Source: Halanaerobiales bacterium (GTDB lineage: Bacteria > Bacillota > Halanaerobiia > Halanaerobiales > Halanaerobiaceae). From it: a stretch of 64,000 nucleotides of DNA. Position numbers and translations under genes: made by a program. Below, one piece after another: positions 8,293 to 62,029 of this stretch. The notes below the pieces were generated by a model, which had not been told where the DNA came from, did not search any database, and saw only the letters and a program-made list of their open reading frames with translations. The stretch is from contig JADQBT010000008.1 of NCBI GenBank assembly GCA_016278485.1, positions 62,001-126,000 of the forward strand, read 5' to 3'. Position 1 is the first letter of the stretch, and the number at the start of each line of letters is the position of its first letter.

Positions 8293-9927
8293 TTACTCTG
8301 CTACAGTACCTTCCCCAAAGCCAACTTCTTCAAGCCATTCAGTTGGATAACCGGCACTATTAATACCGTCTGGTGAGTTTATATAACCATCATTGTATTT
8401 GAAAATCATTTCATCAGAGAAATCCCACCATGCATTAACAACTTTCTGTGCCTGATTATAACTATAATCAGTTACAAAGTCTTTAGCTTTTTCAGCACCA
8501 TAACTTGCATAGATTTCCTGAGCTGCTTTATCAATTGCGGGCTGCATTGCGAAAAATTCATCTTCATATTTGTTCTGCATTGCTTGAATATCTTCAATCA
8601 TGTAAGAATATTTGAGATCTGCCCAATTTGAAACAAAATCAAATGCCCACCAGGCAGATGATCTATCAAACATATCTCTACGACCGGAAGTAAAAGCTTC
8701 TGGTAATTCTTTTGTTCCACTATAAATTGGTACATAACAGGTTGAATGGGGAGCGTCTTCGCCAAACCAGAGAACTGATTTCATTGGCGCAGGTAACCAG
8801 CTACGACTCTGTCCGACAAAACTATAAGAGCATCTGAACATTGAGATTGCTCTTTCCCAATCCATAGACTTTTTATCTTCAGGTTTATTAGCAGAAGGAG
8901 TAGCATATCTATTTGGTGTACCGAAAGGACCAGCTGCTAAGCCTTCAGTTAAGTCAAAACGTGTACCTTCATAGTGATCTCTTTTAATGGCCATTAAATC
9001 TTGCGCAGATACTTTTTTATCAGGTTTTACAGAGAAAGGATAACGATCAGCTTTAGGATCAAAGTTTTGTGAAGGAGCTAAGATAGATAAGACTCTCCAT
9101 TCACGACGTTTCTGATAATATTCTGCTCCATATGGATCTGGATTATAAGCTTCACAGAATACAAATTCTTCTGAAGAATCCCACCAACCCATATCTTTAG
9201 CAAATGACTTAACATTCTTTGAACCTAGTGCGTTTTCTGGATCATCAAGATCGAGAGTATCAATTCTACTTCTGTTTGCTGCTACTGTAATATGTCCATC
9301 AGGCACTCGTTTGGCGGCCCAGATTGCACCTAATTTTTCACTACCTGGAGACCAGAGAGGACCAGGACCTACTATTTCAAACATCCAGGCTTCTTCGCCG
9401 TCAACAACAGTGAGTGTTTCTCCACCATCACCATAGCCATATTTTTCAGCTAAAGATCCCATTATTTGGACAGCTTCTTTTGCAGTTTTAGCACGTTGCA
9501 GAGCAAGTCTTTCTAGTTCTTCAATCATTAAGATAGCGTCACTATTACGTAGATCACGACGACCACTAAATGTAGCTTCACCAATCATTACACCATGCTC
9601 ATTCATAAAAGGATAAGCTATGTGGAAATAAGTATAAGTTTCTTTAACTTGTGGTATTTGACCGGCTTCAGTCATTTCAGAGCCAGGAATACCTTCATGA
9701 CAGCGGCCTTTGTAAACTGTAGTCATTGTACCTTCAGCAAATTTTTGACCTTCAATAATTTGGATTCTAGCATCATAGTTTCCATCACAAGTGTGAGTTG
9801 TCATTACAGAACCGTCAACGGAAGCATCTTTACCTACCATAATTGTGGTACATGCATAAATATTTGAAACAGAGAAGACTAAAATCAATAGCGTCATAAA
9901 AATAATTTGTAAATATCTTTTTCTCAT
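8293..9927 (-). CDS. Secreted C69-family (NtN) dipeptidase
   Basis: Peptidase family C69 enzymes are N-terminal nucleophile hydrolases that cleave dipeptides. The first 25 residues form a Sec signal peptide ending NIYA, and Cys26 begins CTTIMVGKDASVDGS, the family's nucleophile motif. Cleavage by signal peptidase would thus expose the catalytic Cys directly. Further family stretches are HTCDGNYDAR, the GEATFSGRRD segment and DGEEAWMFEI. AAGGAGTG lies about 10 bases before the ATG. It is the last gene of the minus-strand unit that also carries an AspA-like peptidase, a DctM-like permease and DUF6305. Secretion and context suggest it breaks down extracytoplasmic peptides whose products are taken up. 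Preference for a given dipeptide is unknown. Confidence 0.88.
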   Translation of the reverse strand: MRKRYLQIIFMTLLILVFSVSNIYACTTIMVGKDASVDGSVMTTHTCDGNYDARIQIIEGQKFAEGTMTTVYKGRCHEGIPGSEMTEAGQIPQVKETYTYFHIAYPFMNEHGVMIGEATFSGRRDLRNSDAILMIEELERLALQRAKTAKEAVQIMGSLAEKYGYGDGGETLTVVDGEEAWMFEIVGPGPLWSPGSEKLGAIWAAKRVPDGHITVAANRSRIDTLDLDDPENALGSKNVKSFAKDMGWWDSSEEFVFCEAYNPDPYGAEYYQKRREWRVLSILAPSQNFDPKADRYPFSVKPDKKVSAQDLMAIKRDHYEGTRFDLTEGLAAGPFGTPNRYATPSANKPEDKKSMDWERAISMFRCSYSFVGQSRSWLPAPMKSVLWFGEDAPHSTCYVPIYSGTKELPEAFTSGRRDMFDRSSAWWAFDFVSNWADLKYSYMIEDIQAMQNKYEDEFFAMQPAIDKAAQEIYASYGAEKAKDFVTDYSYNQAQKVVNAWWDFSDEMIFKYNDGYINSPDGINSAGYPTEWLEEVGFGEGTVAE

Positions 9928-9984: not shown

Positions 9985-11157
9985 TTATTCATAAAACACT
10001 TTTTCTGCAACTGCCTCATCGGGATTTTTAAAATAATGACCTACACCATTGTCAATAACATCTGCATATTTAGGGATATTCTCGATGATTACCCCCTTTC
10101 CAGGATTTGTTTGATTCCAAATCTGACTAACCATCAGGGTAGTAGAACAATGTCTACCAACTCTTACATCAATAGGCCAGCCGTCTTCATCAATAGATTC
10201 ATATAGCAGACCAAATTTGCCTGCCCGCATTACAAAAGGATCTTTTCCTTCGAGCAATAATCTTTCGTCTGTAACACCTCTAACCCTATCTAAAAATGGT
10301 TCAGGTGTTTCAAATAAGAGTGATACAGCATCTGAATGGTCACCTATCTCACGATGTGATAATCCGTGGAGTGACTTGGGAGAAAATTCTATACCGATTG
10401 GCTCAGCAAATTCCATATCTGTTAACATCATTGATGCCATAGCGGCAATATTTTGGCCAGACTCATGCGCAACTATAGTGCTGATAACTGGATATTCCAA
10501 TTCAGCTTCATGTAAATCAATGAACAGATCAACATTTTCTTCTTTTATAACATTCATAAATCCATAGCAGATTTGTTCTGTTATTGAACCATCTTTCTTT
10601 CCGGGCCAGGTTCGATTTATGTTCCTAATATCCATATAGGCCAGCATTTGTTTACTTGGATAATGGACATATACTTCTGGGTCAGGCCAGGAATCAAGTG
10701 GGTTTGACCAACGATCTCCCATTCTGAATTTTTTTGTTCCCCAATCAGTTTTAATATTATAAAATTGAGGATAAGCATCTCCCGGTCTAGTAACAGTTGA
10801 AGCACTTCTATTTGCTCTAATAGCAATTATTAGTTTGCCTTGTTTTAAGACAGCATTTTCAGCAAAAATTTCAGCAGTAAGATTTGTTGCTGGCTCTTCT
10901 GGGTGTGAACCACCTATTAAAAATATTGTTCCTCCAGGTTTACCGCTGTCCAGGATATATATATTGCAATCAGCAACTGATCCTTTTAAGGGAGCAAAAT
11001 AATCTCCAAGTGTTTTAACTTCAGTTACAGAAGGACCTGCTACAACTGCCTCTTTGTAGTTTCGGTGTGCTAAAAAAGCTTTACCAGAAATAATAAGAGA
11101 AGCAACTATTAAAATCATTGTAATAATTTTAATAATATTTAATCTTTGTTTAGACAT
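9985..11157 (-). CDS. Membrane-anchored AspA/AstE-like zinc carboxypeptidase (M14 superfamily)
   Basis: Resembles the aspartoacylase/succinylglutamate desuccinylase branch of M14 zinc hydrolases. A single hydrophobic helix (about 9-29) anchors or exports it. Zinc ligands are recognisable as His85 and Glu88 in GGSHPEE and His216 in IDLHEAE, with a substrate-arginine region around RANRSAS. GAGGTG lies 5 bases before ATG 11157. It shares the DLHEAE motif with the peptidase half of 15359-16561, so the locus has two related enzymes. Because M14-like enzymes can cut amide bonds to acidic amino acids, a role in trimming a Glu/Asp-containing polymer is plausible, but this is inference. Confidence 0.78.
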   Translation of the reverse strand: MSKQRLNIIKIITMILIVASLIISGKAFLAHRNYKEAVVAGPSVTEVKTLGDYFAPLKGSVADCNIYILDSGKPGGTIFLIGGSHPEEPATNLTAEIFAENAVLKQGKLIIAIRANRSASTVTRPGDAYPQFYNIKTDWGTKKFRMGDRWSNPLDSWPDPEVYVHYPSKQMLAYMDIRNINRTWPGKKDGSITEQICYGFMNVIKEENVDLFIDLHEAELEYPVISTIVAHESGQNIAAMASMMLTDMEFAEPIGIEFSPKSLHGLSHREIGDHSDAVSLLFETPEPFLDRVRGVTDERLLLEGKDPFVMRAGKFGLLYESIDEDGWPIDVRVGRHCSTTLMVSQIWNQTNPGKGVIIENIPKYADVIDNGVGHYFKNPDEAVAEKVFYE

Positions 11158-11166
11158 TTTTTCACC

Positions 11167-11331
11167 TCATTTAATCCTCAGTATTCTTAGAATAAAGGGG
11201 ACTAGAATTACCGAATAAAGAACAGCTTCTTGATAATTTTCTGTTTTATATATTTCTCTGATGAGCACAAAGGCAATAAATGCACTTAATAAATAATAAC
11301 TGAACTCAATAACTGTGTTTAAAATACCCAT
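11167..11331 (-). CDS. Small 54-residue membrane protein, unknown function
   Basis: Two hydrophobic segments (about residues 5-22 and 35-49) are separated by a charged loop (REIYKTENYQE), and the protein ends in a basic tail. ATG 11331 is chosen because AGGAGG lies 7 bases upstream; a longer reading from 11364 would overlap the stop of the permease gene and has no such site. It is squeezed between the DctM-like permease and the AspA-like peptidase in a tight operon. It could be an accessory subunit of the permease, as small proteins are for TRAP-type carriers, but it shows no recognisable DctQ features. No family recognised. Confidence 0.65.
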   Translation of the reverse strand: MGILNTVIEFSYYLLSAFIAFVLIREIYKTENYQEAVLYSVILVPFILRILRIK

Positions 11332-11353
11332 AAAATAACCTCCTGAAAAAATA

Positions 11354-12643
11354 TTATCCTCCAACTAAGAATGAGAGTTGATTACTAAAAATAAGAAATA
11401 TAGTACATAGTCCAAGGATAAATGCCATAGGAACTAGGCATGTTTTAAGAAAATCTCGGTAATAACGCCCCTTATAATTTAATTCAATAACAGTGGCTCT
11501 CCCAACAACTGCAGTAGGAGGGAGGATATCACCTATTGGCCACATAACGGCCATTGCTGATAAAATAATAATTGCATTAAAGCCCTGCATATTAAATAAA
11601 AATATTAATGGCACTCCCAGCAGAGGAGCAACTGCATATTGTAATAAGCCTTCAGAGACAGGGAGGATAAGAAACAGAGTAGCAAATAAAAATCCTATTG
11701 GAAGAGTTACAACAGCAAGGGATATTAATCCACGTGCACCACTTAAAGCCATAACCTGAATTAGAATTCCAACTACAATCATGATCCCAACTAATGGGAT
11801 AAGAGAACGAATTGTTCTGCCAGCAATATCAAGAATATTTAGTTTTTTAGGACTCATAATATACATTGTTATAGCAGAAATAATAAAGATAAACGGTAAG
11901 CCAAGAATAGGCATTGTAAAAGGAAATAGACGACCTGCAACTATTAATAATATTAAGACTAAGAATGGAGTTCCAACTCTAATCCAATTCATTTCAGCAG
12001 GTGGCTCCGGCAATTCCTTTAATATTTTATCAAGATCTGGATTTTCACCTTTAGCACCGAGAAAGAACATTGTAAATAGAGAACCTGTGATTGTAAGAAC
12101 AAATAGTGGCTGCATAAAACCTACATAAGGCATATTAGCACCAGCTGCAGCCATCATAGCCCAAAGATTTATGGGAGGAGCAGCAGCACTCATAGAAGCA
12201 CAGAGAAAAATAATCGCAGCAGTTTTTGTTTTAGAGATTCCCATATAGACTAATACAGTACCAACTAATGTACCCACTGTTAAGACAGTGGCAGCTCCGG
12301 CTCCAGTTAGAGCTCCAGGTATCATTAATATAAAAGTTAAAAAGAGTAGTGTTAAAAACCGATGTTTATGAAAACGAATAATGATTTTGCGTACCATAAA
12401 GACTATGCCACCTGATTCTTTGACAAGATTAATAAATAGGGTAGCAGTGATGAAGATTAAGGAAACATCGTAGTAAGTAAAAGAGCCTTCCACTAAATGT
12501 CTAACAGGAATCCCGCCCGTATGATAAATGGCAGCAGCTATAGCGGCCAGTAACATAGCTAACTCTGTATTAAGTTTAAAATATGTGCCAATAGCGAAAG
12601 TCACTGCTATGATAATAAGTATAATTCCAGCATGTAAGAACAT
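11354..12643 (-). CDS. DctM-like permease of the ion transporter (IT) superfamily
   Basis: A polytopic carrier of about 429 residues with some 11-12 helices, resembling TRAP large subunits (DctM) and related anion carriers. Supporting stretches are the two half-site loops GALTGAGAATVLTVG and SAAAPPINLWAM, and in the second half a matching VMWPIGDILPPTAVVGRA segment. No DctP binding protein or clear DctQ subunit is nearby, so it may work alone or with the 54-residue protein downstream. ATG 12643 follows GAGGTG by 7 bases; the GTG at 12652 overlaps that site. Given the peptidases and the dicarboxylate-type regulator in the locus, uptake of an acidic amino acid or dicarboxylate is the best guess. 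Confidence 0.78.
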   Translation of the reverse strand: MFLHAGIILIIIAVTFAIGTYFKLNTELAMLLAAIAAAIYHTGGIPVRHLVEGSFTYYDVSLIFITATLFINLVKESGGIVFMVRKIIIRFHKHRFLTLLFLTFILMIPGALTGAGAATVLTVGTLVGTVLVYMGISKTKTAAIIFLCASMSAAAPPINLWAMMAAAGANMPYVGFMQPLFVLTITGSLFTMFFLGAKGENPDLDKILKELPEPPAEMNWIRVGTPFLVLILLIVAGRLFPFTMPILGLPFIFIISAITMYIMSPKKLNILDIAGRTIRSLIPLVGIMIVVGILIQVMALSGARGLISLAVVTLPIGFLFATLFLILPVSEGLLQYAVAPLLGVPLIFLFNMQGFNAIIILSAMAVMWPIGDILPPTAVVGRATVIELNYKGRYYRDFLKTCLVPMAFILGLCTIFLIFSNQLSFLVGG

Positions 12644-12676
12644 TAAATTCACCTCATTTCTATGTCTTATATTTCA

Positions 12677-13243
12677 TTATTTAATTTGGAAGAATTCATT
12701 GATAGCTGCTCCCATATCCATATTTTTTTCAAAAAATACGACTGGTATATCTAATTCATTACTTTTTTTAGTAAAATATCCATCTTCATTACTTGAGTTT
12801 TTAATAAGTAAAGCATCAGCATCAGGAATAACAATTTCAATAGATCTTGCGTCATTTTCATCAACTCTTCTTGCCATACCTTCAACATGAGCTCCAATCA
12901 ATTTTATATCTAACTCTTTAGCTGTTTTGATTAGGTCACTGATTCTTTTTTCCTCTTGATTCATATTAGTACCAGCTGCGCCCATACCTTTACCACTGGT
13001 TCCCATTGTAATAATGAGAGTTTTATATTCATTATCTTTTAAATCTTGGGCAGTTAATAAATCTTTTTGAGTACAATCAATATTTGACTGTTGGGAAATC
13101 ATCTTCACCATTAGAGCACCTGGACTTTGTCCACAGGTAGTTACAACAACGGGTTGATTAAATTCCGGAAGATCAGCAGCATGTGCTGAAAAACTTAAAA
13201 TTAAAGTAAAACAGGCTATAACTAATAAAATTTTTAATTTCAA
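12677..13243 (-). CDS. Secreted DUF6305-family protein
   Basis: Function unknown. It has a Sec signal peptide (residues 1-22, ending AHA) followed by one domain with the pattern PVVVTTCGQSPGALMVKM, then TMGTSGKGMGAAG and a VIPDADALLI stretch. The same landmarks (PVVITAPGQNPDGIMIK, AIGHSCKGVGAAG, VPNADYLII) occur in residues 30-150 of the gene at 15359-16561, so the domain is present twice in the locus. The GQS/GxSxKG pattern suggests a nucleotide- or ligand-binding Rossmann-like fold, but that is speculation. The start is TTG 13243 behind AAAAGGAGGAG. It is the first gene of the downstream unit, after the terminator at 13352-13375. Confidence 0.75.
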   Translation of the reverse strand: MKLKILLVIACFTLILSFSAHAADLPEFNQPVVVTTCGQSPGALMVKMISQQSNIDCTQKDLLTAQDLKDNEYKTLIITMGTSGKGMGAAGTNMNQEEKRISDLIKTAKELDIKLIGAHVEGMARRVDENDARSIEIVIPDADALLIKNSSNEDGYFTKKSNELDIPVVFFEKNMDMGAAINEFFQIK

Positions 13244-13341
13244 AAAAATCTCCTCCTTTTAAATTTTAATTAATATATATGCATATTTCTTGACGAAATA
13301 ATTTTCTCCTATTTATTCTCTTATTTCTCTCTGAATATTAT

Positions 13342-13375
13342 AAAAATTTAAAGACCGCTTCGACATAAGCGGTCT
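13342..13375 (-). terminator. Intrinsic terminator of the pgsB-to-regulator operon
   Basis: On the minus strand AGACCGCTT and AAGCGGTCT form a perfect 9-bp stem starting 10 bases after the response-regulator stop, followed by TTTAAATTTTT. It separates the upstream transcription unit from the DUF6305 unit, which must then start in about 13244-13340. I see no consensus promoter there, which fits an activated promoter. Confidence 0.8.
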
Positions 13376-13384
13376 CAAGTCTAA

Positions 13385-14005
13385 TTATTTTAGTATATAT
13401 TTGTGGATAGGCCGGCCGACTTTACCATAATCCATTTGCAGTTTAATAATATTATTCTCTTCTAAAAAATTCAAATATCGATGTACTGTTTGGTAGGCAA
13501 GTTTTGTTCCGGCTGATATTTCCTGAATTGTATGTGGTTTATTAATTTCAGTTAAAAACTGATATACAATTTTCAAGGTATTATCACTCATTCCTTTAGG
13601 AATATTTAAGTCTTCAACTTTTTGTAAGGCAGGATAGAGTTGATCATTATAATTAAGATGAAGTTTAATGCGAGAGATTAGGTCAGCTGTTCTAATCGGC
13701 TTGTTGGCAAAATCATTTGCTCCAGCCTGTAGAAACTTTTCGGCTAAGTCTAGTGATTCATCTACAGTTAACACCAGAATAGGTATTTCAGTATTGATTT
13801 GTCTTACTTGACGAACAAGTTGTAGACCATTTATATCAGGCATGTGATAATCGACCATCAATAAATCATAATTTTTTTTTGTTAAATAATCTAGGGCTTT
13901 TAAACCTCGGTTAGTTGTTTCAATCTGAAAATTGGCAACTTCTGCAACAGCTTTCAATGTAAATAAGATATCAGATTCATCATCAACCGCCAGTATTTTA
14001 CTCAT
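13385..14005 (-). CDS. DpiA/DcuR-like (CitB family) response regulator
   Basis: Two-component response regulator. The receiver domain (1-118) has the acidic pair DDE at 8-10, the phospho-acceptor Asp52 in VDYHMPDING, Thr80 and Lys102 in NKPI. The C-terminal half (about 140-206) is a winged helix of the type seen in citrate/C4-dicarboxylate regulators, with YQTVHRYLNFLEE as recognition region and a basic GKVGRPIHKY end. It overlaps the kinase stop by 8 bases behind a strong GGAGGTGATAAATA site, so partners are certain by position. Likely targets are pgsB and the DUF6305 unit on either side (inference). Confidence 0.88.
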   Translation of the reverse strand: MSKILAVDDESDILFTLKAVAEVANFQIETTNRGLKALDYLTKKNYDLLMVDYHMPDINGLQLVRQVRQINTEIPILVLTVDESLDLAEKFLQAGANDFANKPIRTADLISRIKLHLNYNDQLYPALQKVEDLNIPKGMSDNTLKIVYQFLTEINKPHTIQEISAGTKLAYQTVHRYLNFLEENNIIKLQMDYGKVGRPIHKYILK

Positions 14006-15368
14006 TATTTATCACCTCCGGAAGGATAATAATTGCTTCGGTACCTTGATTTAATTGACTTGAAATTTTAATTGTACCTGCATGGCTTTCAATAACTTCT
14101 TTTACAAAGTGGAGACCTAAGCCAGTGTTTTCTAAACTTGTTGTATAGCCTATTTGCCAGACATTTTCAATTTTATCTGGAGGTATCCCTTTACCATTGT
14201 CTTTGACTAATATTTTAACTTTACCTTGAGCAATTCGGTTGACATATATATTTATTTCTCCAACTTTGTTATCAATGGCCCGAAGTGAATTATCAATTAG
14301 ATTTATTAATGCTCTGGATAATCTTACTTTATTAGCTTGTATAATTATTTCTTCATCATAATGAAAAACAACCTGATCGGCCATTTCTTCTAAAGAGAGT
14401 TGGATTTTTAGAAAATCAAATAACTCTTCAATATTTAGTTCTCTTTTTTTATCTCTATAAAGAATTTCTGAAATCATCTGTGACATTTTATCGGCAGAGT
14501 CTGATATTTTATCAGTGTATCGCGATATTTGCAGGTCATTAATTTTCATATCAATCACCCCACTTAATCCTTGAATAGTAACAAGAGGTGTCTTTAGATC
14601 ATGCACAAGATGTTTTATTTCACTAAAATATCTTGATTTAACAGCTTCTAGTTCTAGTTTCCTTATTTTTTCTTCTTTAGACCGACTTTCTTCTACCAAA
14701 TTAAGTTTACTATAATAATCAATAACTACTCTTGTTAGAATTAAGGCATTAATCATAATAATTATGGAAAAAGTAAATCCAAAGAAATTCATAATGTGAG
14801 TAGCTTCAATAAACTCGGTTACTTCCAGGATAGAGACTGTCATTTCCCCTTTTCCAAATCCAAACTGTGATAGAAATGGAATAATATCAAGCCAATCTAT
14901 ACTGAACAGGAATAGGCTAATAATTATTGTCTTAATGAAATTATGATGAATTTGTCTAGTTAGATAGTGAAGTAAAAAGATCATAATAATTGTCAAATAG
15001 GAAGGACCTGCAAAGACAAAAGCAATATCATAGATCGAACTAATTAACTGATAAGTGATTGGAATAATAATCAAGGTAGTAAGAAAAGCAAAATCCTGAT
15101 AATGAAAAAAATTATCAAGTCCTTCCGCTAATATAAAGGCCCCCACATAGATAGGAAGATGGCGTAAGGTATTCAACATAACAAGTTTGGTTGAAACCAA
15201 GAGAAGGAGACCACTATCTTGTTTGTTAATACTTTGATAAATTTGTTGTAGGATATTATACTGATGATTTTTTGTAAAAGTTGGCAACATAATTGCTCCA
15301 ACAAGGATTAGTAATCCAATAATAACTTTGTTTTTATCTAAGCTATTGATCCTATCTTTTAAGGCCAT
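13998..15368 (-). CDS. Membrane histidine kinase, partner of the DpiA-like regulator
   Basis: Sensor kinase with an N-terminal membrane domain of about six to seven helices (residues 15-215) and no large extracytoplasmic loop, so it probably senses a membrane-associated or transported signal. A coiled linker leads to the dimerisation helix with phospho-accepting His256 in HLVHDLKTP, then an ATPase domain with N-box LINLIDNSLRAID, G1 DNGKGI and G2 GLGLHFVKEVI. The ATG overlaps the last codons of the DUF6305-peptidase gene by 10 bp. The absence of a PAS or Cache sensor differs from standard DcuS/DpiB kinases although the regulator is of that type. Confidence 0.88.
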   Translation of the reverse strand: MALKDRINSLDKNKVIIGLLILVGAIMLPTFTKNHQYNILQQIYQSINKQDSGLLLLVSTKLVMLNTLRHLPIYVGAFILAEGLDNFFHYQDFAFLTTLIIIPITYQLISSIYDIAFVFAGPSYLTIIMIFLLHYLTRQIHHNFIKTIIISLFLFSIDWLDIIPFLSQFGFGKGEMTVSILEVTEFIEATHIMNFFGFTFSIIIMINALILTRVVIDYYSKLNLVEESRSKEEKIRKLELEAVKSRYFSEIKHLVHDLKTPLVTIQGLSGVIDMKINDLQISRYTDKISDSADKMSQMISEILYRDKKRELNIEELFDFLKIQLSLEEMADQVVFHYDEEIIIQANKVRLSRALINLIDNSLRAIDNKVGEINIYVNRIAQGKVKILVKDNGKGIPPDKIENVWQIGYTTSLENTGLGLHFVKEVIESHAGTIKISSQLNQGTEAIIILPEVINNE

Positions 15369-16561
15369 CTTACTTCAACTCCATTTAATGAAAGCAAAGA
15401 AGTGATAATCTTAATCTGATAATCAACTCTTTTATTAAGAGGAAGCTTTCGACATGTTTCTATAGTATAAGCAGGAATGTTTAAGTTTTTTCCTACAGCC
15501 CAGGTGAGACTACCACTGACAGGATAAGTTATTAGGACAAATTTTTCTTTTAGGTCTGTTATTTTCTCATTTAGAGATTCTGTGACCATTGCTCCTTGCC
15601 AGACAGTCTCTTCCTCTTGATAAGCAATTATAGATTGTCCAAGTTGATTTTTATCAAGGTAATTGAATTCCTCAGCTTCATGTAAATCTAAGACAAGATC
15701 AGGAGAAAACTTTTCAATTAAAGTAAATATTTCCGCAGCTCTTTTTTCGCTCTGGGTACCATTAATATTTCCTGGAAAGGCACGATTAAGATTGGCTAAA
15801 CCAGGTGCATTACGTTTAAAGGCAGCGATTGCTGCAGGATTTGCTCTGGGAATAACTATAATACGTCCACCACTAATTACAGGTTCAAGCATCTTTAAAG
15901 CTGTTTGATAACCAGCAATTTCATCCCCATGTGTGCCAGCATTAATAAAAATGGTAGGTTCTTTTTGATCACCATTAATAAAATAGGCCACTTCTTGAGA
16001 TTGGCTTTTAAAAAGCTTAGCTAATATTGGTTTGATACGAGAAAGATTTTCGGCAATTGCCAAGGGAATATTATATTTTTGGGCAGCTTTAGAAAAATAG
16101 TTATCAAAATTACTTTCCTTAGATATGATTAAATAGTCAGCGTTGGGGACAGCAATATTTAATAAATTGTCGGATCGTTCTTCACGGCGACCTGTACCTC
16201 CAAGATGGGTAATGATAATAAACTTACCTTTATTTTTAGCTTCTTGAATTAAATTTTTTGTTCTAGTTAGTTCTTCTGCAAAATTAACTCCGGCAGCACC
16301 AACCCCTTTACAACTATGGCCAATAGCAAGAATTAAGGTAGGATAATTATCAAGTTCATTAGCTTGAAGAAAAGGGAGATAATTATAATCGATTCCTTGT
16401 TGATCTAAAACAACTTTGATCATGATACCATCTGGATTCTGGCCGGGTGCTGTGATTACAACTGGCTGAGCAGGATAAATTTTAATACTTTCAGCTTGTA
16501 TTAAAAATGAAAATGTAAATAAACAGAGTAAAAACAAAAAGATAATTAATAGTTTTTTCAT
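15359..16561 (-). CDS. Secreted fusion of DUF6305 with an AspA/AstE-like zinc peptidase
   Basis: A signal peptide (1-23, ending IQA) precedes a DUF6305 domain (about 30-185; GQNPDGIMIK, GHSCKGVGAAG, VPNADYLII) and an M14-superfamily peptidase domain (about 200-395). Zinc ligands are His211 and Glu214 in GTHGDE and His294 in LDLHEAE; the substrate loop IPRANPAAI and the NLNRAFPG motif are typical of AstE/AspA relatives. AGGAGGG lies 7 bases before the ATG. It follows pgsW closely and precedes the kinase. Polyglutamate hydrolases with an M14-like fold are known, so release of glutamate or oligomers from the product of PgsB/C is a reasonable hypothesis, not shown by sequence alone. Confidence 0.8.
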   Translation of the reverse strand: MKKLLIIFLFLLCLFTFSFLIQAESIKIYPAQPVVITAPGQNPDGIMIKVVLDQQGIDYNYLPFLQANELDNYPTLILAIGHSCKGVGAAGVNFAEELTRTKNLIQEAKNKGKFIIITHLGGTGRREERSDNLLNIAVPNADYLIISKESNFDNYFSKAAQKYNIPLAIAENLSRIKPILAKLFKSQSQEVAYFINGDQKEPTIFINAGTHGDEIAGYQTALKMLEPVISGGRIIVIPRANPAAIAAFKRNAPGLANLNRAFPGNINGTQSEKRAAEIFTLIEKFSPDLVLDLHEAEEFNYLDKNQLGQSIIAYQEEETVWQGAMVTESLNEKITDLKEKFVLITYPVSGSLTWAVGKNLNIPAYTIETCRKLPLNKRVDYQIKIITSLLSLNGVEVRWP

Positions 16562-16581: not shown

Positions 16582-17664
16582 CTATTTTTTAGCTATAAGA
16601 AAGTAGAGAGGTATTATGATCAAAATAAAAATTAAGAATGTTATAATATAATTATTGTATTGAACCTGAAAATAGACATTTGCTTTGCCGGGTTTTGGCA
16701 AGGGTACTGGATCCACTGTGACCCCATTTTTAATTGCCAAATCTTCTAGATTAAGCAGATGGATAACTGGTATATCTTTTTTAAGAAAGCGAAAAATAAG
16801 TCCAATATTATCATATTCTTTTTTTAAATTATGGGGAAGAGTTAATCCATTACTAAAATTTACAGAGGCAGCTGAATTACCAAAGTTAGCTGAGGCTCCT
16901 CCAATATTAATAAAACATTTAATAGGTTTTTCACTATTGGCCTGATAGATTTCCATTCTCCGCTCAATGCTTTCTTCAAGATTATCTTCATAAATTAAAG
17001 GAAGTTCTGATTCTTCAGCTAATTGAAAGAATAGCTTACGGCTATCTTCTAAAAGTAAATTTTCCGCTCGATCATTGTTACCGCCAAGTGAGATGGCACT
17101 TAAATTTGTCTTAATTAGCTGGTTTTTTCTTAAAACATTAAGCATATCAATAAATGTATATTCAACTAAATTGGCTCCATACATTGAAGCACCCAGTGAA
17201 TAGATGATGATAGGTTTTAATTCCATTATCTCAGCAGCACTTAAAACTGCTATTATTAAGCCTGGAAAAGATCCACTGGCACCGATAGCAATTGTGTCAC
17301 CAGCTTTGAGATCAAGTTCATTAAAATATCTAATAAGTAATGCAGCAAAATCAGGATTTGTAGAAGTCCTTTTAGCCTTGAGATCACCAAGAGTTGTAGT
17401 GAGAGGAGTAAATTCTCCGCCAATAAGGCCTGTCATATTTGGATCTAGATTGGAATCTAGAGAAAGTCCTTTCTTAACTTTAGTCTCGTAAATTATTTTT
17501 TCTGCTTTTAACATTAAATTGGCTGCCTCTAGCTGTTTTTGATAAACCGGATATTTAGTTTTATGACTTGTCTGGAATACCAATATTAGTCCTATTATTG
17601 CCAGCAAAGCCGTTAAGATAAGGATTGGCAGAGCCAATTTTCCTTTTACCCAATGTTTATACAT
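16582..17664 (-). CDS. pgsW: Poly-gamma-glutamate system protein PgsW
   Basis: Matches the 'poly-gamma-glutamate system protein' family that accompanies PgsB/PgsC in some anaerobes. It has a helix at the N-terminus (about 13-31) and another at the C-terminus (about 337-357), with a large extracytoplasmic or cytoplasmic domain between that carries a GDTIAIGASGSFPGL stretch, a SLGASMYGAN stretch and an INIGGASANFG stretch. The molecular role is unknown. AAAGGAG lies about 9 bases before the ATG and pgsC ends 14 bp upstream, so pgsB-C-W form one unit. No pgsA/capA gene is present in the window; PgsW may take part in polymer export instead, which is inference. Confidence 0.75.
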   Translation of the reverse strand: MYKHWVKGKLALPILILTALLAIIGLILVFQTSHKTKYPVYQKQLEAANLMLKAEKIIYETKVKKGLSLDSNLDPNMTGLIGGEFTPLTTTLGDLKAKRTSTNPDFAALLIRYFNELDLKAGDTIAIGASGSFPGLIIAVLSAAEIMELKPIIIYSLGASMYGANLVEYTFIDMLNVLRKNQLIKTNLSAISLGGNNDRAENLLLEDSRKLFFQLAEESELPLIYEDNLEESIERRMEIYQANSEKPIKCFINIGGASANFGNSAASVNFSNGLTLPHNLKKEYDNIGLIFRFLKKDIPVIHLLNLEDLAIKNGVTVDPVPLPKPGKANVYFQVQYNNYIITFLIFILIIIPLYFLIAKK

Positions 17665-17677
17665 TTTTAAGTCTCCT

Positions 17678-18106
17678 TTAAATTATTAAAAATGTTATTA
17701 AACGTACAAGAATAGAAACAATAGTTAATGAAGCAAGTGTCGAAAATATACCTTGTCTTAACATGTCATTTGCGAGTAACCCCGCTATGATATAGCCAAT
17801 TACTCTAATATCTTCTGATAAAGGGAGATAATGAATAAAAAGTGTGCGATAATACCAACCAATTAGATAGCCAATAATTACACAAGCGGTAAAACGCCTT
17901 CTGCTATACATAATAACATAGTTTGATAATATATTCACAATAAAATAAGTTAGAAGTGCAGTTATTATAGTTGCCAATATTCGCCAAGGGGCTTCCCAGA
18001 AAAAGGCCAAATAACCAGGAACGATGATTCCTCCTGTATATAATCCTGTCAATTCTGTAAATATAAAACTAAGTAGAATACCTACTCCGACTGATTCTAT
18101 GATCAT
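17678..18106 (-). CDS. pgsC: Poly-gamma-glutamate biosynthesis membrane protein PgsC/CapC
   Basis: A 142-residue polytopic protein (four to five helices) with the CapC signature ELTGLYTGGIIVPGYLA near the N-terminus and a GLLANDMLRQG stretch later. CapC forms the membrane synthase with CapB, which ligates glutamate units. Its ATG overlaps the TGA of pgsB by four bases (ATGA), the classic coupling seen in cap/pgs operons. Length and topology are normal for the family. The polymer could also be made from another amino acid; the sequence does not settle that. Confidence 0.9.
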   Translation of the reverse strand: MIIESVGVGILLSFIFTELTGLYTGGIIVPGYLAFFWEAPWRILATIITALLTYFIVNILSNYVIMYSRRRFTACVIIGYLIGWYYRTLFIHYLPLSEDIRVIGYIIAGLLANDMLRQGIFSTLASLTIVSILVRLITFLII

Positions 18107-19302
18107 AATATTTCCACTCCATTCTCTGCAAAAAATGAAACTATCTTTTCGGCATTACCATGAATATTGCCACAACCAAAAAGAATAAGGTCCTGACCTA
18201 AACTTATTTTACTTAAATTTTTATTTAATTTAAAAAATGGTCTGTTAATATTTAGTAAAAATATTTTATCTTTGGGAATACCATTTTTCATTAGCAGTTT
18301 TTTCTGCTTATATTTAAGTGCACCAGTTAATATATAACCTTGAAATATTTCTGAATCTGTCAAAAAAGAGATAAACTCGTTAAGACGAAAGCTGCGATCA
18401 GAGCGGTGATTAATTAAAGCATAACAGTTTGTTTTATTAAAATTAATGCCAAAATCAATAAAGTTTTTGGATTTTGCCTTATTCCAGACTATTTTGGTAG
18501 AATAACTATCATTGGCGGCAAATGCATTTATAAGTAGATATTTGTTCAGGTCTTGTTTCAGCAAATAGTATTGCAAATTTCCAGGATCTTGTTTTATGGA
18601 ATGCATACCTTGTAAAGCAATTTTTCTATCAATAGATAAGATAGAAGCAATTTTTATAGCACAGGCAATATTATCTGAAAAGACTGGCCACTTGAAATCA
18701 TTAAGTTCTTCTTTTGTTGGTAGAGAATCTAGAGCTGAAATAAATTCATTTCCTTTTTCTAGCGACTTTCTTTTAATAATCTCTACCGATTCCTTAGCAG
18801 TAGAAATTACTTTTTTATTTACTGGCAGACTAAGGGCAATTGTTTCTGCTATCTCTGAAATTGATTCACCCATCACATCAAGATGGTCATGTCTGATATT
18901 AGTAATTACAGTTAAATCAGCTTTTAGAAACTGGTTTTGACTACTCCATTGTATTTCTGGGGAGATGGCCATACATTCAATAACAAGGATATCTACTTTT
19001 TTTTGAGCGGCTAGTTTAACAATTTTCTTCTGTTCAGAAATACTTGGTGGACCATGGCGAATAATTTCTCTTTCACTACCATCTGGATAGATAATTCTTG
19101 GGGAAGTACCTGTCGTTTTTGCCAATACTTTTAATCCGCCTTTTTGTAAAGCACCTGCAATTAATCGGGTAGTTGAAGATTTCCCTCGCGTTCCATTAAC
19201 ATGGATTATGTAGGGAATATTAGCTAAATTTTTTCTATGGTTTTTCTTTTCGAAAACGCCAAAGATAATGAATAATATAAATATTAAAAAAATAATACGC
19301 AT
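18103..19302 (-). CDS. pgsB: Poly-gamma-glutamate synthase ligase subunit PgsB/CapB
   Basis: ATP-dependent amide ligase of the Mur-ligase superfamily that adds glutamate to the growing chain. An N-terminal hydrophobic helix (1-16) anchors it; the P-loop GTRGKSST is at 37-44, followed by TTGTSPRIIYPDG, the ECMAISPE motif, and TNIRHDHLDVMG, all characteristic of CapB. At 399 residues it has normal length. ATG 19302 is preferred because AAAGGTG lies about 6 bases upstream; an ATG at 19317 precedes that site. It is the first gene of the unit, and an inverted repeat lies in its upstream region at 19338-19365. Confidence 0.92.
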   Translation of the reverse strand: MRIIFLIFILFIIFGVFEKKNHRKNLANIPYIIHVNGTRGKSSTTRLIAGALQKGGLKVLAKTTGTSPRIIYPDGSEREIIRHGPPSISEQKKIVKLAAQKKVDILVIECMAISPEIQWSSQNQFLKADLTVITNIRHDHLDVMGESISEIAETIALSLPVNKKVISTAKESVEIIKRKSLEKGNEFISALDSLPTKEELNDFKWPVFSDNIACAIKIASILSIDRKIALQGMHSIKQDPGNLQYYLLKQDLNKYLLINAFAANDSYSTKIVWNKAKSKNFIDFGINFNKTNCYALINHRSDRSFRLNEFISFLTDSEIFQGYILTGALKYKQKKLLMKNGIPKDKIFLLNINRPFFKLNKNLSKISLGQDLILFGCGNIHGNAEKIVSFFAENGVEIL

Positions 19303-19337
19303 AATTTCACCTTTCATAAATCGTATTTCAATCTCAG

Positions 19338-19745: not shown

Positions 19746-19824
19746 TTTATTAATAATTTCGTGAGTTAACAAGATAGTGTGATAAAGTAGTGGGTGGACA
19801 AAAAACACTTAAGGAGTGGAAATT

Positions 19825-21435
19825 ATGATAAAAAAAGCAATTTTAATTAGTTTTGTTCTTATATTGGTGATGATGAGTATGCAAGTAATGGCGGCTGATG
19901 GAGACAGATATGGTGGGAATCTTGTTTTTCCTTTACCTTATAATGGTGGTGTAGATACATTGGATCCAATTATGACTAATAGAACACAGTCATTAATTCC
20001 TATTAAAAATATTTTTGCTAGATTAGTTAATATTAATCCAGAAACATTAGAACTTGAACCAGCTATTGCAAGTTCCTGGGATGTTTCTGAAGATGGTAGA
20101 GTATATACGTTCAATCTAAGAGAAGGAGTAAGATTTCATAATGGTGATGAACTAACAGCTTCAGATGTAAAGTTTAGTTATGAGAGAATAATGGACCCTG
20201 AAATAGCATCATCTGTTTCACATTTATTTTTAAATGTAGTTGGGGTTGAAGAATTTAAAGCAGGTAATAGTGTTGGTATTAGTGGCATTGAAGTAATTGA
20301 TCCTTATACTTTGCAGATTACTTTAAATTCACTTGATGTTAATTTTTTATATAATATAGCTCATGTGGAAGCAGGAATTGTACCTCAATCAGTTGTAGAA
20401 GAGGTTGGTGCAGATTTTGCTAATAATCCGGTTGGAGCGGGCCCATTCAAGTTTGTTAGCTGGGTGCGTGGTAGTGAAATAGTTGTGGAAGCATTTGATG
20501 ATTATTATCAAGGCAGACCATATCTTGATCAAGTTAATTTTCGTATTATGACAGAGGCATCTGCGAGAATGGTTGAATTCCAATCTCAGGGTCTTGATAT
20601 TGATATCGTATCTGCTTCACAGTACACACGTTACAAAAATGATCCAACATATAATGATCAGTTAATTGAGGTACCTGAATTATGGACGAGAAATATTCAT
20701 TTTAATATGGATGTAGAAGCATTACAGGATGTAAGGGTAAGACAGGCTTTTAACTATGCAGCAAATGAAGCGTTAATTGTAGAAAGATTGCTAGCAGGTA
20801 AAGCTTATCCAGCAACTGGATGGTTTCCACCTAGCTCAAGTGCTTATAACTCCGAATTAGAAGGTTATGATTATGATTTGGAAAGAGCAAAAGAACTGAT
20901 GGAAGCAGCAGGTTATACTCCAGAAAATCCTTTGCAGTTAGAAATCCTTGGTACTGATAATCCTTCCTGGGGTATCAGAATAGTTGAGGCTATAATGCCA
21001 GATTTAAGGGAAGCTGGTTTTGAACTAAAACCTGTCTTAGTTGATGGAGCAACCTTGATGGATCAGATTACTTCCGGTGAATTTGATGCAGCAATTTATT
21101 CATGGGGTGGATCTGTTTCACCGATCAACTATATTAGTCAATACTTCTGGTCTGAAGTTGATCGTTCTTCTGGAAATTATACTAACTATAGTAATCCTGA
21201 ATTTGATGGATATATTGAGGCAGCCATGCAAACTATTGATGCAGAAGAGAGAATTGAATTATTACAGCAAGCAGAACATGTATTAGTAGAAGATCCACCT
21301 GTTTGGTTCTATAATTATAACAAAGCGGTTGCAGTTACTCAACCATGGGTACATGGTGTAGTAGCTACTGCACAAGAACTAACATTTATACCAATTGAAC
21401 AAGTATGGGTAGATGAAAACAGTCCTAGGAAGTGA
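19825..21435 (+). CDS. Periplasmic substrate-binding protein of a peptide-type ABC transporter (SBP family 5)
   Basis: Family 5 solute-binding protein, 536 residues, with a Sec signal peptide (1-23, ending VMA) and no lipobox Cys. Family features include GGNLVFPLP, TLDPIMTNRTQS, the signature region EDGRVYTFNLREGVRFHNGD and the typical DVRVRQAFNYAANE segment. ATG 19825 has AAGGAG 8 bases upstream. It is the first gene behind the lysine riboswitch, so its ligand is probably lysine or lysine-containing peptides, although family 5 proteins normally bind peptides, nickel or sugars. The 15-bp hairpin after its stop would favour higher levels of this protein than of the permeases. Confidence 0.92.
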   Translation: MIKKAILISFVLILVMMSMQVMAADGDRYGGNLVFPLPYNGGVDTLDPIMTNRTQSLIPIKNIFARLVNINPETLELEPAIASSWDVSEDGRVYTFNLREGVRFHNGDELTASDVKFSYERIMDPEIASSVSHLFLNVVGVEEFKAGNSVGISGIEVIDPYTLQITLNSLDVNFLYNIAHVEAGIVPQSVVEEVGADFANNPVGAGPFKFVSWVRGSEIVVEAFDDYYQGRPYLDQVNFRIMTEASARMVEFQSQGLDIDIVSASQYTRYKNDPTYNDQLIEVPELWTRNIHFNMDVEALQDVRVRQAFNYAANEALIVERLLAGKAYPATGWFPPSSSAYNSELEGYDYDLERAKELMEAAGYTPENPLQLEILGTDNPSWGIRIVEAIMPDLREAGFELKPVLVDGATLMDQITSGEFDAAIYSWGGSVSPINYISQYFWSEVDRSSGNYTNYSNPEFDGYIEAAMQTIDAEERIELLQQAEHVLVEDPPVWFYNYNKAVAVTQPWVHGVVATAQELTFIPIEQVWVDENSPRK

Positions 21436-21446
21436 GGTGTCTAATC

Positions 21447-21486
21447 TAAATGGGGCTGTCTGTCAGCTTGAAGGCAGTCCCATTTA
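21447..21486 (+). promoter_or_regulatory. 15-bp intercistronic hairpin between binding protein and permease genes
   Basis: TAAATGGGGCTGTCT pairs with AGGCAGTCCCATTTA (15 bp, two G-U pairs, 10-base loop). It lacks a T-run, so it looks like a processing or 3'-stabilising element rather than a terminator. It also covers the alternative permease start at 21450. Confidence 0.65.
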
Positions 21487-21494
21487 TTATAATT

Positions 21495-22427
21495 ATGGCT
21501 AATTTTATTTTACAACGATTATTCCGTTCCGTCTTTACAGTTTTAGCAGTTATAACTATTATCTTTTTTTTACTTAATCTATTACCAGGTGATGCTGCCT
21601 TATTAGGTGGTGATCTCAGAAAAAGTCAGAATGAAGAAGCTATGGAAGCGGTTAGAGAAAAATGGGGTTTAGATAAGCCAGTACCACAACGGTATTTTTC
21701 ATATATTATAAATTTATTAAAAGGTGATTTAGGGATTTCTTATCGGACCTCTCTGCCAGTCATTAAATTAATTGGGCAATCAATCTTACCTACTTTAAAA
21801 TTAGCAGCGTTTTCTTTCATCATTTCAGTAGTGATTGGTATATCGGTTGGATATATTGCAGCTCTGCATAAAAATTCTTTGGTAGATTTCTTTTCAATGT
21901 TTTTTTCTATTTTCGGAATTTCTGCTCCAAGGTTTTGGATTGGTTTAATGTTAATGTATCTTTTTGCAGCAACTTTTCGGATTCTACCTGCATCAGGTTA
22001 TGGGGATGGAGCAATTTCATATTTGATATTACCAGCTATTACTTTAAGTTTACCATTGATTTCTTTTTTGGCGCGTACTACTCGTGCTACTGTATTAGAT
22101 GTTATTGATGAGGATTATGTACGTACGGCTAAAGCAAAAGGTCTATCAATGAAAGTTGTAAATTGGAAACATGTTTTGCGAAATTCTTTAATTTCTATTG
22201 TAACAGTAGGTGGTCTTCAATTTGGAAGTTTGCTGGCTAATACGGTCATAGTTGAAAAAGTTTTTTCTTATCCTGGTTTGGGTAGTCTGATTGTAGACTC
22301 AATTCACAGGCGAGATATTCCAGCTGTGCAGGGATGTGTACTTGTTTTTTCATTAAGTTTTATTTTGATTAATCTAATTATTGATGTGCTTTACGGTTAT
22401 ATGGACCCTCGTATTAATTATAGTTAG
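21495..22427 (+). CDS. ABC transporter permease, DppB/OppB type
   Basis: First permease of the lysine-riboswitch transporter. It starts with the family pattern MANFILQRLFRSVFTV, has LPGD, the RTSLPV periplasmic segment and the EAA loop region DYVRTAKAKGLS, with six helices. ATG 21495 matches where DppB proteins normally start, but no binding site lies before it. An in-frame ATG at 21450 is 10 bases from GAGGTG but lies inside the hairpin at 21447-21486. Looping out that hairpin would bring GAGGTG nearer to 21495. The start is thus uncertain; the family assignment is not. Confidence 0.9.
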   Translation: MANFILQRLFRSVFTVLAVITIIFFLLNLLPGDAALLGGDLRKSQNEEAMEAVREKWGLDKPVPQRYFSYIINLLKGDLGISYRTSLPVIKLIGQSILPTLKLAAFSFIISVVIGISVGYIAALHKNSLVDFFSMFFSIFGISAPRFWIGLMLMYLFAATFRILPASGYGDGAISYLILPAITLSLPLISFLARTTRATVLDVIDEDYVRTAKAKGLSMKVVNWKHVLRNSLISIVTVGGLQFGSLLANTVIVEKVFSYPGLGSLIVDSIHRRDIPAVQGCVLVFSLSFILINLIIDVLYGYMDPRINYS

Positions 22428-22440
22428 GGGAGGAATGAAA

Positions 22441-23253
22441 ATGAGAAAGGTATTAAAAAACAAACAACTTGTATTAGGAAGTATGCTAGTGCTTGCTATT
22501 ATAATTTTAGCAGTTTTTGCTCCTTTAATAGCACCATATGATCCAGTAGGAAATAATTTATTATCCTCCTTGCAACCACCGGGTGGTAATCATATATTGG
22601 GTACTGATAGCCTAGGAAGAGATCAGTTAAGTAGAATTATATATGGTTCCAGAATTTCTTTAATGCTTGGTCTCACTACCCAATTAATAAACACATTAAT
22701 TGGTGTTATTTTGGGGGTGCTCGCTGGATATTTTGGTGGTAGAGTTGATAATCTTATTATGGGATTAACAAATGTAATGCTTTCAATACCTGCCATTATA
22801 TTAGGTTTGACTATTATGGCCGTCATGGGACCAGGTCTCATAAATATATTTATTGCATTAGGTTTTACACTCTGGACTTATACATGTAGAGTAGTAAGGG
22901 CACAAACAATGTTAATTAAAGAAAAAGAGTTTGTTAAGGCGGCTGAAGCATTAGGTGCATCAAGTTGGCGGATAGCTATTAAGCATATTATCCCACAAAT
23001 AGTTGGACCTGTGCTCGTGATTGCCACTTTTGGGGCGGCTTCTGCAATTTTACTGGAAGCTAGTTTAAGTTTTTTAGGGATAGGCGTACAACCACCTACA
23101 CCAAGTTGGGGAGCAATGCTGAGTAGAGGCAGAGAATATATTTGGACAGCGCCCTGGCTCATGATATATCCAGGTTTATTCCTGGTAACAACAATCCTGG
23201 GTTTAAATTTAATGGGTGATGGATTGCGTGATTACTGGGATCCTAAAATGTAG
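22441..23253 (+). CDS. ABC transporter permease, DppC/OppC type
   Basis: Second permease, 270 residues, with the DppC hallmarks LIAPYDPVG, HILGTDSLGRDQLSRIIYG, the EAA loop KAAEALGASSWRIAIKHIIP and the closing SLSFLGIGVQPP and GDGLRDYWDPK motifs. ATG 22441 is chosen because GGGGAGG is 7 bases upstream; ATG 22435 would be only one base from it. It ends the operon: a terminator follows and no DppD or DppF ATPase gene is present, so the ATPases must be encoded elsewhere or be shared. Confidence 0.92.
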   Translation: MRKVLKNKQLVLGSMLVLAIIILAVFAPLIAPYDPVGNNLLSSLQPPGGNHILGTDSLGRDQLSRIIYGSRISLMLGLTTQLINTLIGVILGVLAGYFGGRVDNLIMGLTNVMLSIPAIILGLTIMAVMGPGLINIFIALGFTLWTYTCRVVRAQTMLIKEKEFVKAAEALGASSWRIAIKHIIPQIVGPVLVIATFGAASAILLEASLSFLGIGVQPPTPSWGAMLSRGREYIWTAPWLMIYPGLFLVTTILGLNLMGDGLRDYWDPKM

Positions 23254-61866: not shown

Positions 61867-62029
61867 TAATGGCATGTTTGCTGGCTTAAGCTATTTAATT
61901 TAAAATAGTAATAATATTCCTTAAAAATTATTTAAATTTTGCAGGAGATTTATAATTTTTGGTCAATTAATATTATTGAACGCAATAAGTTAGTCATCAG
62001 ACAAATTTACAAGGGGGAGATTTTTTATT

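Follow-up and report, generated by a model that had tools for sequence, protein, structure and literature searches.

We analyze a locus for the synthesis of poly-gamma-glutamate (PGA) in a Halanaerobiales bacterium of the family Halanaerobiaceae (assembly GCA_016278485.1) and put forward a role for DUF6305 (PF19823), a domain of unknown function that the locus encodes twice, once as a free secreted protein and once fused to a zinc peptidase. The window analyzed here is the whole 64,000-nucleotide stretch covering positions 62,001 to 126,000 of contig JADQBT010000008.1. Considered together, homology, gene order, co-occurrence, predicted folds and conserved residues make it moderately probable that the secreted, single-domain DUF6305 acts as a receptor of small glutamyl compounds, serving both a permease and a histidine kinase. 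This reading draws on the observation that most gene contexts pair the outside domain with a membrane protein suited to solute recognition, and on the parallel with TRAP and tripartite tricarboxylate transporters (TTT).

In loci of the permease type, DUF6305 would be the extracytoplasmic part of a transporter completed by a TRAP-M-like permease and a membrane protein of about 50 residues, and the peptidases of the locus (AstE/AspA-like proteins, GGT and C69 dipeptidase) would supply or trim its cargo. In loci of the kinase type, the domain would signal the presence of its ligand to a histidine kinase whose sensor is embedded in the membrane and which lacks a large outside domain. One copy of each kind lies in the window, where the free copy would serve the permease and the fused copy is encoded directly before the kinase; from this position, the peptidase domain probably acts where the ligand is sensed, making or trimming it at that site. 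We infer the ligand, its binding, the direction of uptake and the control of the kinase from the evidence laid out below.

Distribution and co-occurrence

All genome co-occurrence counts come from a sample of 398 genomes of the phylum. Permease family membership was assigned at E <= 1e-50, and bit-score cut-offs were 25 for PF19823 and PF24827, 222.7 for TIGR04012, 96.45 for TIGR04011, 100 for TIGR04332 and 23.8 for DctM; the Fisher p values ignore kinship. DUF6305 was found in 45 genomes, the poly-gamma-glutamate system protein TIGR04332 in 25 (24 above cut-off) and the PGA synthase PgsB in 32 above cut-off. DUF6305 and TIGR04332 occur together in 22 genomes (p 1e-20), which are exactly the 22 genomes that carry the permease family (p 5e-24 with DUF6305, 3e-33 with TIGR04332). 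The sensor family of the kinase is present in 37 genomes, 32 of them with DUF6305 (p 2e-31), and 42 of the 45 DUF6305 genomes carry the permease or the kinase family. Among 43 tabulated DUF6305 genomes, 21 have the domain next to a histidine kinase and away from any permease, and these copies have no adjacent AstE/AspA-like (Asp) peptidase gene.

The same counts bear on whether DUF6305 might instead take the place of PgsA in the machinery that makes or exports PGA. The domain accompanies TIGR04332 in 22 of 25 genomes, and the three exceptions comprise two contigs that end at the expected cassette and one genome with a TIGR04332 fragment only, all of which would suit such a part. Yet 23 of the 45 DUF6305 genomes lack TIGR04332, 22 of these 23 also lack PgsB above cut-off, and in genomes devoid of TIGR04332 the domain is found mostly with the kinase and often with a peptide ABC transporter, which leaves a PgsA substitute highly improbable. 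PgsB without TIGR04332 was seen in 10 genomes, one of which has DUF6305.

Gene contexts

Gene order was read from the window and fetched loci L038-L197, of which L118-L197 are the best 80 of 460 confirmed relatives in a scan of genome contigs (genome_contigs). Open reading frames (ORFs) were called by a simple, crude rule and labeled with profiles built from the window proteins and a few neighbors; DUF6305 was recovered in 67 of the 80 contig loci in a first round of ORF calling and in 78 in a second, on which the gene-order counts are based. The contig set and the family draw are not independent, since several loci are identical DNA (for example L038/L118, L041/L122, L053/L192, L059/L134, L062/L167 and L064/L145). 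In the family draw, 70/81 DUF6305 genes have a permease or kinase gene within three genes on the same strand; in genome_contigs, 71/81 do.

Two contexts recur. In context A, DUF6305 stands by the permease, the small membrane protein and an AspA-like protein of about 376 aa, often with GGT or C69 dipeptidase, pgsB, pgsC and TIGR04332; a frequent order (e.g. L125, L192) is GGT, DUF6305, permease, small protein, Asp, in some cases a small Asp, PgsB, PgsC, TIGR04332, kinase and regulator. In context B (e.g. L092, L094, L106), DUF6305 lies directly upstream of the kinase and regulator, often with genes of an Opp-type peptide transporter. Neighbors that act on glutamyl bonds (GGT, C69, AspA-like and D-glutamate cyclase-like proteins), together with PGA synthesis, point to a glutamyl ligand, the likeliest candidates being gamma-glutamyl oligomers or (D-)glutamate set free from PGA. 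D-glutamate cyclase-like genes adjoin the GGT and DUF6305 cassette in L069, L078, L111, L114 and L117, hinting at D-glutamate as a product.

Judged by the record titles and taxonomy labels of the fetched loci, the domain occurs in at least nine phyla, including Bacillota, Fusobacteriota, Spirochaetota, Synergistota, Thermotogota, Bacteroidota, Atribacterota, Bipolaricaulota and Thermodesulfobacteriota. Two genomes hold many copies, with nine DUF6305 matches in G114 (L066-L072) and seven in G200 (L061-L065); most of these copies have a permease to themselves, a pattern that would suit diversification of the cassette toward several substrates.

The permease and the small membrane protein

Relatives of the window permease resemble the large subunit of TRAP transporters, with a match to DctM (PF06808) at E <= 0.01 in 65 of 72 family members; the window protein itself reaches 15.9 bits, below the cut-off, and none of the 72 matches TctA in Pfam at E <= 0.01. 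The predicted fold of the window permease aligns with TRAP SiaQM chains at Z 21-27, and TRAP SiaQM and DASS carriers taken together give Z 21-29 across some 400 aligned residues. The model's highest-ranked match is ArsB, and DASS and ArsB chains score as high as TRAP. Sequence identities of DUF6305 and permease correlate at 0.45 over all pairs of 45 cassettes, compared with 0.05 in 300 within-genome permease swaps (standard deviation 0.05, maximum 0.30). An apparent in-frame join of DUF6305 and permease (L072, 7429-9183) was discarded, the middle of the domain being missing and the case coming from one fragmented genome with nine DUF6305 matches.

A profile made from the 65-residue ORF that follows the window permease yielded 128 matches when ORFs of 40 residues or more were searched. 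All 108 selected genes (<140 residues) lie directly downstream of a permease gene on the same strand, and the small protein comes next in 108 of the 136 permease genes with a downstream neighbor. The proteins measure about 47-65 aa and, in an alignment of 43, an LR pair near the C-terminus is invariant and the final K nearly so. The window copy has no Pfam family, the family at large gives scattered weak Pfam matches only, and the small protein matched no DctQ model. Gene callers have likely overlooked this small membrane protein.

The kinase sensor

The N-terminal part of the window kinase, some 215 residues that form a membrane-embedded sensor (14664-15368), is common to 53 of 61 neighborhood kinases in both contexts and matches no Pfam family. 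The gene directly upstream of these 53 kinases encodes DUF6305 in 24 cases (four of them fused, with the fused copy of genome G081 present twice, as L038 and L118) and TIGR04332 in 10. Five sensor-family genomes lack DUF6305. In G218 and G267 the pgs genes are on contigs that end where the cassette is expected, and in G374 the contig begins 287 bases before the kinase; the other two, G003 and G155, are taken up below.

Fold and conserved residues of DUF6305

The model of the free copy is predicted to form a Rossmann-like sheet. The scan motif SxKG[LM]GAAG, by which the contig set was picked, fixes those columns in L118-L197, and conservation was therefore computed on 80 DUF6305 sequences of the family draw, with L072 excluded. 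G38, E97 and R100 are present in all 80 and Q39 in 79. R126 is found in 68/80, distributed as 54/56 in context A, 3/3 in fused copies and 11/21 in context B; K85 follows the same pattern in context A (54/56) and in fused copies (3/3) and does not rank with the most frequent residues in context B. Residues G38/Q39, S83/K85, H119/G122/R125/R126 and D154/F157 lie just past the ends of strands 32-36, 75-79, 114-119 and 144-148, and the C-terminal edge of the strands is the usual ligand side of Rossmann-like folds. The excess of positive residues would suit an anionic ligand. Simple patterns place a hydrophobic stretch ahead of the domain in 158 of 162 DUF6305 ORFs and a lipobox-like motif in 35.

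Fold comparison also brings up the possibility that DUF6305 is an enzyme, such as an SGNH-like hydrolase or an amidase acting on glutamyl compounds. The top Foldseek matches belong to the SGNH hydrolases, TesA among them (E 2e-5 to 1e-3), and the GQS motif after the first strand is reminiscent of a nucleophile position. The serine of SGNH block I is nevertheless not conserved, the GQS serine being S in 33/80 sequences and N in 3/3 fused copies; query-normalized TM-scores do not exceed 0.46 among the matches listed, and the Z values of PatB and TesA are close to those of kinases and CheY, so that an enzymatic role appears improbable. The best VIA matches (Z 7.7-9.4) are a mixture of kinases, PatB, TesA, CheY and glycosyltransferases with no decisive relative, and a profile search of PDB sequences with DUF6305 returned matches at chance level (best E 0.025).

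The two copies and the peptidase fusion

The initial annotation held that DUF6305 occurs in the locus both alone and fused to an AspA-like peptidase, and profile searches confirm this on both counts (Table 1). Both ORFs are intact, and the genome has no third match. The N-terminal half of the fused protein scores 174 bits against PF19823, where the cut-off is 25, and its C-terminal part reaches 62 bits with PF24827 (AstE_AspA_cat), M99 and M14 scoring more weakly; the peptidase domain carries a zinc-type H211xxE214 and a DLHE motif from residue 292. The free and fused copies share 41% identity over 143 residues (BLASTP, E 1e-30). Of the shared landmarks proposed (PVVxTxxGQxPxGxMxK, GxSxKGxGAAG and VPxADYLII), two are loose in the free copy, where SPGALMVK stands at the PxGxM site and IPDADALLI at the VPxADYLII site.

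On a tree of 109 of 158 DUF6305 domains, from which near copies had been removed, 15 of 16 kinase-type sequences fall on one starred branch, the free window copy clusters with eight other permease-type sequences (support 98), and a separate branch outside the kinase group unites the fused copies (100). Because the free and fused copies sit on separate branches, their sequences mark them as old relatives, with no recent duplication. The fusion was seen in one family only (3/398 genomes; 1/80 genome_contigs loci). In L119, L120, L123, L157 and L187 its two parts have split-gene counterparts, DUF6305 being followed by an Asp gene of 236-265 aa, and in a tree of 64 Asp domains from 36 chosen loci the three fused domains fall within the small-Asp clade (14 small, 3 fused, 1 other; Shimodaira-Hasegawa-like approximate likelihood ratio test, SH-aLRT, 100) and not with the large class encoded after the permease. 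Their exact sister is unsure because the branches are long.

The fusion had been read as a Rosetta-stone hint that DUF6305 recognizes or delivers the substrate of the peptidase. A functional link with glutamyl-polymer peptidases is a fair conclusion, given that the fusion joins genes which are adjacent elsewhere in PGA/GGT loci and that the fused domain belongs to the small-peptidase clade. The peptidase is not, however, the main partner of the domain, which has the permease or the kinase in 42/45 genomes, and delivery of substrate to the peptidase is a possible role, narrower than the evidence. In its full form, this alternative makes DUF6305 the substrate-recognition module of the peptidase, presenting PGA chains to the AstE/AspA-like domain, with the free copy acting in trans. 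The covalent fusion, the five loci with a small Asp gene directly after DUF6305 and the presence of an Asp gene within three genes of 47/81 and 65/81 DUF6305 genes all speak for it; we nonetheless hold it to be rather unlikely, as DUF6305 in kinase-type genomes has no Asp neighbor, the sampled genomes and loci show the fusion in a single family, and the Asp gene adjacent to DUF6305 is of differing classes across lineages.

Evidence against a receptor role

Several observations weigh against DUF6305 as a receptor for the permease and the kinase. Within single genomes, the correlation between DUF6305 and permease identities is 0.08, a value within chance expectation (reached in 559 of 2000 swaps), and in L129, L132, L135 and L158 one permease copy lacks an immediately preceding DUF6305 gene of its own. 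These are spirochaete loci in which two permease genes surround one DUF6305. Neither permease nor kinase is near DUF6305 in 11/81 cases of the family draw and 10/81 of genome_contigs, and three genomes (G004, G051 and G148) have DUF6305 and neither family at the cut-offs used. Conversely, G003 and G155 (genus g16) clearly have no DUF6305 beside the kinase. A one-lobe receptor of about 160 residues would be unusual, and the fold is generically Rossmann-like, with no solute-binding protein among the 50 fold-comparison matches shown, a result that excludes nothing.

Organization of the window locus

The locus consists of two gene sets on the - strand (Table 1). The first runs from PgsB through PgsC, TIGR04332, the DUF6305-peptidase fusion and the histidine kinase to the response regulator; the second comprises the free DUF6305, the permease, the small membrane protein, the AstE/AspA-like protein and the C69 dipeptidase. 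A terminator-like hairpin separates the sets, which therefore probably form two transcription units, the first serving synthesis and sensing, the second uptake and breakdown. PgsB and PgsC both score above cut-off, which identifies a gamma-PGA synthesis locus, PGA production itself being predicted. The scan of the locus proteins revealed no GGT; the single GGT match of the genome is on a different contig, and CapA-like PF09587 matches are weak and on another contig. Divergent from pgsB, positions 19816-23253 encode an Opp-type binding protein (SBP5-like) and two more ORFs.

Table 1. Features of the PGA locus in the window, listed in the direction of transcription
Feature	Position	Strand	Basis
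PgsB, PGA synthase	18103..19317	-	TIGR04012 364 bits
PgsC	17678..18106	-	TIGR04011 127 bits; PF14102
Poly-gamma-glutamate system protein TIGR04332 ("PgsW", our own label)	16582..17664	-	TIGR04332 369 bits
Fusion: signal peptide, DUF6305 (32-184), AstE/AspA-type zinc peptidase (about 193-400)	15359..16561	-	PF19823 E 2.4e-51, 173.8 bits, residues 32-184; PF24827 E 7.9e-17, 61.9 bits, residues 202-297
Histidine kinase, hydrophobic N-terminal membrane sensor of ~215 residues	13998..15368	-	PF02518, PF00512
Response regulator, winged-helix-like C-terminus	13385..14005	-	PF00072 E 4e-26; weak helix-turn-helix matches
Terminator-like hairpin and T tract between the gene sets	13351..13376	-	10 pairs; 13330-13400 fold z -3.2
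Free DUF6305, secreted, TTG start after AAAGGAGG	12677..13243	-	PF19823 E 6.2e-50, 169.2 bits, residues 30-185; model with predicted local distance difference test (pLDDT) 92.9
TRAP-M/DASS-like permease	11354..12652	-	DctM matches of family A6; model pLDDT 93.8
Small membrane protein, 65 residues, C-terminal ..PFILRILRIK	11167..11364	-	Family profile; position after permease
Second AstE/AspA-like protein, of the ~376 aa class following the permease	9985..11157	-	PF24827 23.2 bits (<25 cut-off); tree clade
C69 family dipeptidase	8293..9927	-	PF03577 E 4e-70

Relation to known systems

The proposed transporter resembles TRAP systems (DctP or TAXI, DctQ and DctM) in combining a candidate M-like permease, whose fold clearly matches, with a separate secreted protein and an extra small membrane protein. 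It differs in that the secreted partner is DUF6305, a single Rossmann-like domain of about 160 aa, instead of DctP or TAXI, neither of which matched any of 10 scanned locus proteins, and in that the small protein has about 50 aa, whereas DctQ is a four-helix protein according to PMC5812351. PMC5812351 also describes TctCBA and BctCBA/BctDE, in which a binding protein, permease and small subunit are linked to a sensor kinase and regulator; the TTT component set, with its two-component system, is similar to the one found here, but the secreted partner is hit by the DUF6305 profile and by none for TctC, and the permeases are without a TctA match.

With PgsBCA of Bacillus the locus shares PgsB and PgsC above cut-offs; here, however, TIGR04332 stands beside PgsBC, and 9 of 10 PgsB genomes without TIGR04332 are also without DUF6305. 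PMC4497714 reports hydrolysis of gamma-PGA by a zinc peptidase related to carboxypeptidase A, and the PGA hydrolases PghP/YndL would be a functional parallel of the fused Asp domain, although the latter matches AstE_AspA_cat, M99 and, weakly, M14, and no PGA hydrolase family. PGA production has been reported for Fusobacterium nucleatum (PMC3815933). The open-licence literature searched yielded no mention of DUF6305, no work linking PGA with a TRAP transporter, GGT and an operon, and none on PGA in Halanaerobium; searches for PF19823, TIGR04332 or pgsW, and for "poly-gamma-glutamate system protein", returned only work unrelated by title.

Significance

In its broadest form, which we advance tentatively, the receptor reading suggests that a one-lobe DUF6305, an M-like permease and a protein of about 50 residues may constitute a further class of binding-protein-dependent secondary transporter that recycles PGA fragments in many phyla, its receptor being shared with or recruited by a family of histidine kinases whose sensor is membrane-embedded and, in the Halanaerobiaceae, fused to the peptidase that would make its ligand. 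The analysis provides a concrete, testable role for a domain of unknown function present in at least nine phyla, and draws attention to a small membrane protein that lacks annotation and to a family of kinase sensors absent from Pfam. It would also link the TIGR04332 type of PGA synthesis with a dedicated module for uptake and sensing, and thus bears on how anaerobes may make, sense and reuse PGA.

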